Assembly (NCBI GenBank): GCA_947176355.1
Contig: CAMWQY010000005.1
Coordinates: forward strand, 1 to 21,891
Reading direction: 5' to 3'
Origin: an uncultured Porphyromonadaceae bacterium
GTDB taxonomy: Bacteria > Bacteroidota > Bacteroidia > Bacteroidales > Muribaculaceae
DNA: 21,891 bases
Shown here: piece after piece, positions 541-1,768 of the stretch
Position numbering within the stretch: position 1 is the stretch's first letter
Layout: the number at the start of each line of letters is the position of its first letter
The notes under the pieces: generated by a model
Database searches by the model: none
Seen by the model: the letters and a program-made list of their open reading frames with translations, nothing else
What the model was told of the DNA's origin: nothing
Program-made: the position numbers and the translations under genes

Positions 541-1440
541 TTATTTCCAAAGAGGTTCAGAATACCAATGATCTGGGAATCCCATTGCTTTTGTATCAAC
601 CATTGGATATTGGCTTATCAAACTTTTCAAATCTGATACAAATTGAAATTTACCATTTATTGCTTCTAACCAGTAGGCTATGCAGCATAATACGGCATAA
701 AGACGGTTGGGATCAATATCCAAATTACTTATCCAGAGTCCTCTATATTTACCATTTATTTGTGGAGTGGCTGATAGCCTTCTGTTCCAGATGCGAGCAT
801 GATGTGCGCAAAAATTCCTTAATGATGCAATGCTACGCATCCAACTTTCCAGAGTTTCATGATTTGGTAAGTTAAACTCGCGCGCGATATTTTTTTTGAC
901 CTTATTGTCAGAAAAATTATAATATAGTTTTGATAGAGTACCCAAAGAAGCCAGTCCCAATGTCTTCCACGCAGGAGGGAATGTCGGTTTTTTATACTTT
1001 TTGTAATGCTCTTTGATGAAATCTTCACGAGATCGATCTAATTCTCGGTCAATAGATGAGAGATTTTGTGCAAATAATCGTTCATTCTCTGAAAGATTAA
1101 CATCCATAAACCAGAAAGGACCATATTTCAATGAGAAGTGTTGGATGATTTTGGTGCGTAAAGCAATTTCAATCTCCTGTATCGCTGAAAAAACAAGCTG
1201 TCGAAGCCTTGTGTCAAATTCATATAAGGCAAATGCGTTTTCTAAAGTGCTTCCTGCTTTAAAATAGTGCGATTCCTTATCTTCCTCCATAGGTCGAAGG
1301 TAAGAGGCAATCCTAAAATAACTTACTAAACCTAACTTTCGTTGGGCTTCTTTTTCATCAATGATGATTAATCCGTTTGCCTTGAGTTTTTCAATTATGG
1401 CAAATGTATTTAAGGCGGGTTTGGAGTATTCTTTGTTCAT
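541..1440 (-). CDS. abiF: AbiF/Abi_2 family HEPN RNase toxin
   Basis: The 299-aa product fits the Abi_2 (AbiD/AbiF) family over its full length. Recognisable blocks are LGLVSYFRIASYLRPM near the N-terminus, FALYEFDTRLRQLVFSAIQEIEIALRT in the middle, then PPAWKTLGLASLGTLSKLYYNF and LRNFCAHHARIWNRRL. RNFCAH is a HEPN motif (R-x4-H), the catalytic signature of many RNA-cutting toxins, including the nuclease sites of Cas13. Proteins of this family act in phage abortive infection and as toxins held in check by a neighbouring RNA. Here the start codon directly abuts the U-tract of a structured leader (1441-1498). There is no protein partner. The gene looks AT-richer than its neighbours and is enclosed by repeats, which suggests acquisition. 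The RNase activity is inferred from the motif. Confidence 0.9.
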   Translation of the reverse strand: MNKEYSKPALNTFAIIEKLKANGLIIIDEKEAQRKLGLVSYFRIASYLRPMEEDKESHYFKAGSTLENAFALYEFDTRLRQLVFSAIQEIEIALRTKIIQHFSLKYGPFWFMDVNLSENERLFAQNLSSIDRELDRSREDFIKEHYKKYKKPTFPPAWKTLGLASLGTLSKLYYNFSDNKVKKNIAREFNLPNHETLESWMRSIASLRNFCAHHARIWNRRLSATPQINGKYRGLWISNLDIDPNRLYAVLCCIAYWLEAINGKFQFVSDLKSLISQYPMVDTKAMGFPDHWYSEPLWK

Positions 1441-1498
1441 AAAAATAAAAGACCCGCCCTGGTTCGCTGGTCTTTGGGAAGCGTGGCGGATTCTGTCA
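1441..1498 (-). ncRNA. abiF-associated leader RNA with H-type pseudoknot, candidate antitoxin
   Basis: The minus strand between the promoter and the abiF start codon can fold as an H-type pseudoknot. Stem 1 pairs CCGCC (1489-1485) with GGCGG (1458-1454). Stem 2 pairs AAAGAC (1475-1470) with GTCTTT (1453-1448). The two 3' arms are adjacent with no base between them, which allows coaxial stacking. The U-rich run 1450-1441 then leads straight into the abiF ATG, so the RNA could also act as a terminator/attenuator that limits toxin readthrough. As I recall, a conserved 'abiF' RNA motif upstream of Abi_2 genes has been described; this locus has that position and style. The exact ends are estimates from the promoter and the U-tract. 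Confidence 0.72.
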
Positions 1499-1501
1499 AT
1501 G

Positions 1502-1533
1502 CAAAGATAATGCTAATATTTCAATTTTGCAAA
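1502..1533 (-). promoter_or_regulatory. Bacteroidota-type promoter for the leader RNA and abiF
   Basis: On the minus strand TTTG (1533-1530) is followed after exactly 20 bases by TATCTTTG (1509-1502). This matches the -33 TTTG / -7 TAnnTTTG consensus of the Bacteroidota primary sigma factor. Transcription should begin near 1498-1494, just before the pseudoknot. Confidence 0.85.
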
Positions 1534-1687: not shown

Positions 1688-1725
1688 GCGTCAATCCAGA
1701 GTAGTTAGCACTCTCCGAGTGCGTC
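1688..1725 (+). repeat. Short palindromic repeat, type 2, copy 2
   Basis: This is the hairpin GCACTC-TCC-GAGTGC with GTAGTTA in front, almost the same as 413-449. It starts 5 bp after the type 1 unit, and a truncated start of another unit (GCGCGTCAATC) follows at about 1729-1739. The 5' part (GTCAATCCA) is shared with type 1, which shows common ancestry. Confidence 0.8.
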
Positions 1726-1768
1726 ATCGCGCGTCAATCACACCTGACAAGGAAAGATATTATAGAAT

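Follow-up and report, generated by a model that had tools for sequence, protein, structure and literature searches.

A two-stem leader RNA upstream of abiF as a candidate RNA antitoxin of the AbiF/AbiFr family

Does the short stretch between a promoter and the start codon of an abiF gene encode an RNA antitoxin, and which structure and which relatives would such an RNA have? The question is raised by a 21,891-nt stretch of DNA from a gut bacterium (hereafter the window), for which an initial annotation had proposed that a compact pseudoknot RNA, ending in a terminator at the abiF start codon, restrains a HEPN toxin. We examined the gene, its leader and their homologs in order to establish which parts of this proposal stand.

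The abiF gene and its leader

The gene (positions 541-1440, minus strand) encodes a 299-aa HEPN protein whose only Pfam match is Abi_2 (PF07751; 181.1 bits, 3.6e-53, with a gathering cut-off of 25.6) and which is matched by the AbiD model of PADLOC (252.2 bits, 1.9e-75); an NCBIfam search of the protein gave no useful result. Its sole convincing solved relative in a PDB search was chain A of 8VZ6 ('Abi family protein'), which aligned over near-full length (E 1.2e-62). According to PMC12373285, 8VZ6 is the dimer of PbAbiF solved with two ncRNA copies; the PbAbiF/AbiFr system is that of Zilberzwige-Tal et al. (Cell 2025, as cited in PMC12373285 and PMC12737573). The HEPN ribonuclease motif R-x4-H is present as R208-N-F-C-A-H213 (802-819, minus strand): R208 and H213 are invariant across nine aligned sequences, that of the window included. 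The motif also aligns with 8VZ6, and the two residues correspond to R210 and H215 of PbAbiF in the naming of PMC12373285. Both Pfam and this alignment thus agree with the original reading of an Abi_2 protein with an RNFCAH motif. A protein search of the same genome, which is 74% complete, identified two abiF genes, the second lying on contig C162 behind a leader that we designate L002.

Upstream of abiF and on the same strand, a -33 element TTTG (1533-1530) and a -7 element TATCTTTG (1509-1502) lie 20 nt apart, and the sequence bears out the Bacteroidota-type promoter TTTG-N20-TATCTTTG that had been read here; a sigma-70 promoter scan of the window gave nothing useful. We infer that transcription starts at about 1497-1494. 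A U-rich tail (1451-1441, minus strand), a candidate intrinsic terminator, begins directly after the outer stem described below and reaches the abiF ATG at 1440, again as originally noted. The hairpin was not listed by a simple terminator scan of the window, its loop exceeding the length that the scan permits.

The same geometry was observed in 125 homologous leaders, a stem-filtered set in which some loci are counted twice (overlapping loci are, for example, L033/L047, L034/L088, L002/L035, L013/L037, L003/L104 and L004/L105). The -7 box lies 9-12 nt upstream of the stem in 107 of the 125, against 1.5% by chance; both promoter elements are present in 86 leaders, the -7 box alone in 21 and neither in 18. 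At least six T are found within the 12 nt 3' of the stem in 124 of the 125, and the distance from stem end to ATG, 11 nt in the window, has a median of 17 nt (115 leaders measurable, 86 of them with 20 nt or less). The spacing of the -7 box, the T-rich tail and the short distance to the ATG together point to an RNA that starts just 5' of the stem and possibly ends in the U-tract. The fusion of terminator and start codon is therefore present as described but not peculiar to this locus, being common across the family. To judge from its sequence, the window hairpin looks like an element that doubles as an attenuator, 11 nt upstream of the start codon.

Fold and homology of the leader RNA

A protein search in 397 genomes of the host's family gave matches in 129, and the leaders of selected matches were fetched together with those of some loci from an Rfam search. 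Among the 96 leaders so collected, 93 were parsed into stems and 3 were unparsable; 78 passed the filter (score of at least 7, with L077 removed by eye), 59 of which were distinct. We also used 80 named loci, chosen by protein similarity, of which 75 were parsed (50 with a score of at least 7) and 5 were without a leader on the contig. Applied to shuffled leaders, the stem parser passed 5 of 74. L152, L160, L175 and L077 were taken out by eye ahead of the within-class loop/tail, geometry, Mantel and 98-leader folding analyses.

In the sequence-only MAFFT alignment of the 59 leaders (A1), an outer stem encloses an inner stem of CGC/GCG or AGC/GCU; the apical loop is variable, and the 3' bulge differs from class to class. 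Within the window, the candidate abiF-type antitoxin RNA maps to 1497-1441 on the minus strand (RNA about 1496-1441, ~56 nt). Its outer stem pairs 1491-1485 with 1458-1452, U1490-G1453 and A1491-U1452 included, and its inner stem pairs CGCU (1483-1480) with AGCG (1468-1465). The inner stem closes an apical loop UCCCAAAGACC (1479-1469), which is variable in homologs and contains the supposed pseudoknot strand, and between the two 3' arms lies a 6-nt bulge AACCAG (1464-1459), which is class-specific and conserved within its class. The CCGCC/GGCGG helix (1489-1485 with 1458-1454) of the initial annotation was correct and forms part of the outer stem; the inner stem and the bulge had been overlooked. 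The bulge is probably a site of protein recognition, and in PbAbiFr the inhibitory nucleotides are placed in a bulge (PMC12737573).

In A1, 78.9% of the pair cells are paired, which is an underestimate because 14 rows belonging to the ACUUACCC/GGGUAAGU class have their outer stem off by one column. We therefore also considered an alignment of 39 homologous leaders (A2), which is A1 minus these 14 rows, minus L041, L014 and L059, and minus the held-out leaders L001 (the window), L003 and L004 (its relatives with ~80% protein identity). In A2, 98.7% of the two-stem pair cells are paired, compared with 27.9-47.0% in slid controls, a percentage that is inflated because the stem parser had preselected the rows. 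Better evidence is provided by compensatory changes and by the held-out search reported below. Two-sided changes occur at 6 of the 10 pairs, the outermost pair of the inner stem changes from C-G to A-U in 13 of the 39 rows, and the covariation score is 0.491, against at most 0.080 with slid partners. The comparison of homologous leaders for covariation, a check that had been suggested from the start, thus supports the two stems with their 3' bulge.

Folding energy alone does not set the window sequence apart (z -0.65; an equally good fold is reached by 48 of 200 shuffles); the structural evidence for its RNA is comparative. The lowest-energy fold of the window differs inside the outer stem, and the computed pairing probability is 0.98 for the outer and 0.30 for the inner stem. 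The lowest-energy fold has at least four outer pairs in every one of 98 distinct filtered leaders, and in 73 of these folds the inner stem has two pairs or more.

The initial annotation had envisaged a different fold, in which the loop strand AAAGAC (1475-1470) pairs with GTCTTT in the tail (1453-1448) to give an H-type, ToxI-like pseudoknot that inhibits AbiF. The two strands are indeed complementary, and six consecutive Watson-Crick pairs could form between loop and tail; such a six-pair match arises by chance in 0.35% of cases when the loop is shuffled and in 0.6% when loop and tail are shuffled, too often to carry weight for a feature that was singled out by eye. All six pairs are found in only one of the 59 aligned leaders, that of the window itself. 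L068 retains five of them on A1, but L003 retains four and L004 three, even though both share the window's outer stem, bulge and tail. Moreover, the conserved inner stem closes the loop, and in L112, which has an identical outer stem and tail start, the apical loop can itself fold into a small hairpin. Pairing between a leader's own loop and tail is no stronger than with tails swapped within the class (8.41 vs 8.45; 88 combinations, the cognate value being equalled or exceeded in 619 of 1000 shuffles), the tail in this comparison beginning one base later than the helix proposed earlier. A class-blind comparison gave a small excess (8.37 vs 7.81; equalled or exceeded in 7 of 2000 shuffles), which we read as relatedness because it is gone once shuffling is done within classes. 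The six pairs being private to the window and having no comparative support, the pseudoknot was rejected and can be given next to no credence; the analogy with the ToxI pseudoknot falls with it.

The homology of the two-stem RNA was assessed with a covariance model (R2) built from the 39 leaders of A2; some RF03085-positive leaders are among these, whereas the window and its two ~80%-identical relatives are not. R2 matched the window at 1497-1444 with 53.8 bits (E 4.1e-16, E-values of such models being rough), with no further match at E ≤ 1 in the rest of the 21.9 kb. The window RNA is by this result homologous to RF03085-positive leaders, and so is an abiF-type leader RNA in the wide sense. 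Genome-wide, R2 found two places, each just 5' of one of the two abiF genes; the second of these leaders, L002, belonged to the training set.

The Rfam abiF model RF03085, a search that had likewise been suggested at the outset, gave no match to the window at its gathering score (37 bits), nor at E ≤ 10 in 1300-1800, but detected the genome's second copy L002 (38.5 bits). On 19 loci of the family it gave 10 matches at E ≤ 10 in 9 loci, 6 of which (in 5 loci) reached the gathering score, that of L002 among them. At that score it called 3 of 18 named loci, whereas R2, at a looser threshold and trained in this group, matched all 18 at E ≤ 0.1 and 17 of them at E ≤ 0.01. Both RNAs have two stems, a 1-nt spacer, an 11-nt loop, a 6-nt 3' bulge and a position 5' of Abi_2 genes, whereas the window RNA has an extra inner pair (U1480-A1468) and another loop and bulge. 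Because RF03085 shares this architecture and detects the second copy while missing the window, the window RNA is, on sequence grounds, a divergent relative of RF03085 that lies beyond the present limits of Rfam.

Distribution, variants and genomic setting

Searched with R2, the 80 named loci gave 66 matches at E ≤ 0.1, and in 58 of the 80 a match lies within 250 nt upstream of abiF. No match was found near the abiF start in 17 loci with a usable leader, and 5 more had no leader on the contig; among the 17, a hairpin is visible by eye in L133 and L134, and L129 and L153 have an R2 match that could not be placed relative to the start. Fibrobacter, Verrucomicrobia/Akkermansia and Lentisphaeria are among the groups represented. 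In the host's order, R2 matched 40 of 295 genomes (own genome included, under stricter filters and counted on the RNA match alone). Across 110 loci, identical protein starts having been removed, RNA distance is correlated with protein distance (Mantel r 0.72), whereas the DNA further upstream, which is nearly saturated, gives r 0.21; the window and L003, for instance, have an RNA distance of 0.10 and an upstream distance of 1.0. RNA class therefore tracks the protein, as expected for a binding pair.

Several single loci deserve mention. In L131 and L132, from records named Fibrobacter, AbiF and its RNA occur in another phylum at ~45% protein identity, which suggests horizontal transfer or a misbinned contig. 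L140 has two tandem abiF-type motifs (1892-1946 and 1987-2041) ahead of one gene, as in the RCd22 leader discussed below, and L103 and L104 have a second R2 match ~95 nt 3' of abiF. In L015 and L042 (G079:C137), two AbiF genes from different clades lie side by side, each accompanied by an RNA of a separate class, and this pair offers a natural test of specificity.

Six AbiF homologs of the family, carrying RNICAH or RNLCAH, gave no leader match with R2 (L197, L198, L199, L200, L202 and L206). Each has instead, 3' of the AbiF gene, a Bacteroidota-type -7 box followed by a conserved hairpin (L197:2123-2188, L198:1851-1916, L199:3295-3360, L200:3180-3245, L202:1479-1544, L206:1438-1503), a candidate relocated antitoxin. 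In the alignment of these six hairpins (A5), from which a further model (R3) was built, 4 of the 15 predicted pairs change on both sides; Rfam gave no match at E ≤ 5 at the hairpin position. The R3 match begins 77-92 nt past the end of the aligned abiF coding region. On 394 genomes of the family, under stricter filters, R3 gave 21 matches in 18 genomes, 9 of which lie 3' of a same-strand AbiF homolog (the six of the training set and three new ones, two of these from one genome). The neighbour of the match in L209 is Abi_2 by Pfam, the match in L218 precedes a weak Abi_2, and two matches from two genomes lie 184 nt 3' of an ORF, which is DUF3800 in L220 and has an identical start in L221. For the remaining nine matches, two AbiF queries gave no tblastn hit in the fetched stretch; two of these nine are one site on both strands, L214 lies near a contig end, and Pfam was run on the neighbours of L211, L216 and L222. 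The AbiF homolog of L201 showed neither a leader RNA nor a downstream hairpin of the R3 type.

Another AbiF branch (L083, L086, L089, L092 and L096-L099) has a leader hairpin that, judged by eye, seems to lack the 6-nt bulge (CCCGUUAGCA..UGCUGGCGGG), and in several of its members a second hairpin precedes the first. R2 gave one weak match (L205) on three loci of this branch.

The abiF cassette of the window is flanked by two copies of a direct repeat, D2 (421-461 and 1697-1737, plus strand), both of which match, at ~80%, one stretch of the abiF-less site of a close relative, G384 (L186). Where the window has 462-1696, G384 has the same flanking genes (96% identity for the TPR gene, 81% over 37 aa for the left gene) with about 450 bp between them and without abiF, and no homolog of the window AbiF was found in its 81%-complete genome. 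These observations fit the view that the locus gained a ~1.28-kb cassette when dispersed repeats recombined, the alternative being a deletion in G384; the full length difference between the two sites is ~1.5 kb, other repeats included. Dispersed intergenic repeats surround the cassette at 187-292, 421-461 and 1642-1737, and the core of D2 occurs at 8 sites of the genome with up to 3 mismatches. That these repeats specifically delimit the abiF module was considered and rejected, since 54 matches to the stretch 183-292 occur in the genome, which is incomplete.

Relation to known systems and mode of action

The closest characterised system is PbAbiF/AbiFr, with which the window shares a full-length homologous protein, the HEPN motif and, as compared through the leader of the PbAbiF homolog L042, the architecture of two stems and a bulge. 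L042 is 89% identical to PbAbiF, and RF03085 matches its leader with 58.5 bits, a score obtained on the overlapping locus L015. Its protein is 37% identical to that of the window, and the two leaders differ in loop (CUCU type in L042, UCCC..GA.C type in the window) and bulge (CAAAUG type vs AACCAG). A second counterpart is AbiF_Cd/RCd22 of the C. difficile phi027 prophage, likewise an Abi_2 toxin with a leader RNA ending in a terminator before the gene; the RCd22 transcripts, however, are 88-132 nt long and carry two abiF motifs followed by a separate terminator hairpin (PMC12373285), whereas the window has one motif whose own stem adjoins the U-tract.

With the type III systems ToxIN, AbiQ, CptIN and TenpIN, the locus shares the order of RNA antitoxin, terminator and RNase toxin gene (PMC12373285). 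It differs from them in that its predicted toxin is, by sequence family, HEPN/Abi_2 and not ToxN-like, and in that tandem repeats, a key feature of type III antitoxin RNAs according to PMC12373285, are absent at the window, which has a single R2 match; a pseudoknotted antitoxin, finally, is unsupported for the window RNA by the leader comparison. What stands of the initial annotation is that an AbiF HEPN protein is accompanied by a structured RNA, the two forming a candidate RNA-antitoxin/toxin pair from a known family; the pseudoknot is abandoned, and in its place stands a two-stem hairpin with a 3' bulge. The link of this family to the origins of Cas13, also mentioned in that annotation, is already in print (PMC12373285, PMC12165695, PMC12737573). 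A literature search combining AbiF, type III toxin-antitoxin and Bacteroid found no paper.

The AbiF/RNA pair is part of an already described toxin-antitoxin family, and we consider it highly likely that the window locus is a two-component AbiF/AbiFr RNA-antitoxin system that works like type III. At the locus itself, the basis for this reading is the conservation and fold of the RNA, the promoter geometry, the U-tract, the intact catalytic motif and an RNA class that follows the protein. Binding, neutralisation, toxicity and attenuation are ascribed to it by analogy with relatives, and by the same analogy the conserved hairpin very probably holds the AbiF toxin in check. One promoter would give rise to a ~56-nt RNA with two stacked stems and a 6-nt 3' bulge; most transcripts would, as in relatives, end in the U-tract after the outer stem and provide free antitoxin RNA, and occasional read-through would yield abiF mRNA. 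The RNA would then bind the AbiF HEPN dimer and block its RNase site, again as relatives suggest. We further propose that AbiF bound to its own leader could block translation (autorepression), given the distance of 11 nt between the hairpin end and the AUG, and that AbiF would be released when a phage disturbs the system or the locus is lost, leading to RNA cleavage and growth stop.

The evidence from C. difficile bears directly on whether the leader acts in trans. The homologous abiF pair of this species was reported as toxin and RNA antitoxin with premature termination, and its leader RNA lowers abiF expression in cis (PMC12373285). Together with the position of stem and U-tract right next to the ATG, this could be taken to mean that the leader is only a cis-acting attenuator or autoregulatory operator of abiF and no free antitoxin. 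The RCd22 leader, however, also neutralised AbiF in trans and bound AbiF, and its stems are required (PMC12373285), and 8VZ6 holds a homolog of the window protein, PbAbiF, with two RNA copies (PMC12373285). Loop and bulge are, moreover, conserved by class along with the protein, beyond the needs of a terminator, and we regard a purely cis-acting leader as unlikely. More improbable still is that the RNA guides AbiF to target RNAs in the manner of a pre-Cas13 guide: AbiD/F is related to the HEPN domains of Cas13 and RNA guidance predating Cas13 has been proposed as possible (PMC12165695), but the bulge and much of the loop are class-conserved, whereas a guide would vary, and the relatives function as antitoxins. 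An AbiF/AbiFr-type antitoxin acting in trans is thus the reading that we retain.

A wider possibility, which we put forward tentatively and hold to be rather doubtful, is that a single ~56-nt element may combine the roles of free antitoxin, intrinsic terminator and translational operator, and that these roles may have been uncoupled in another AbiF branch, in which the R3 hairpin lies downstream of the gene behind its own promoter and is also found by DUF3800 or without a recognised partner. If this is true, AbiF-type RNAs would be portable antitoxins that can be relocated and re-partnered.

The structure of the RNA is here corrected, a two-stem hairpin with a 3' bulge replacing the pseudoknot, and many such RNAs in Bacteroidota are missed by the Rfam abiF model (3 of 18 named loci called). 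Class-specific loops and bulges that track the protein make the specificity between RNA and toxin testable, including with the two AbiF pairs of this genome, and they are relevant to the possible route from an antitoxin RNA to the guide of Cas13.
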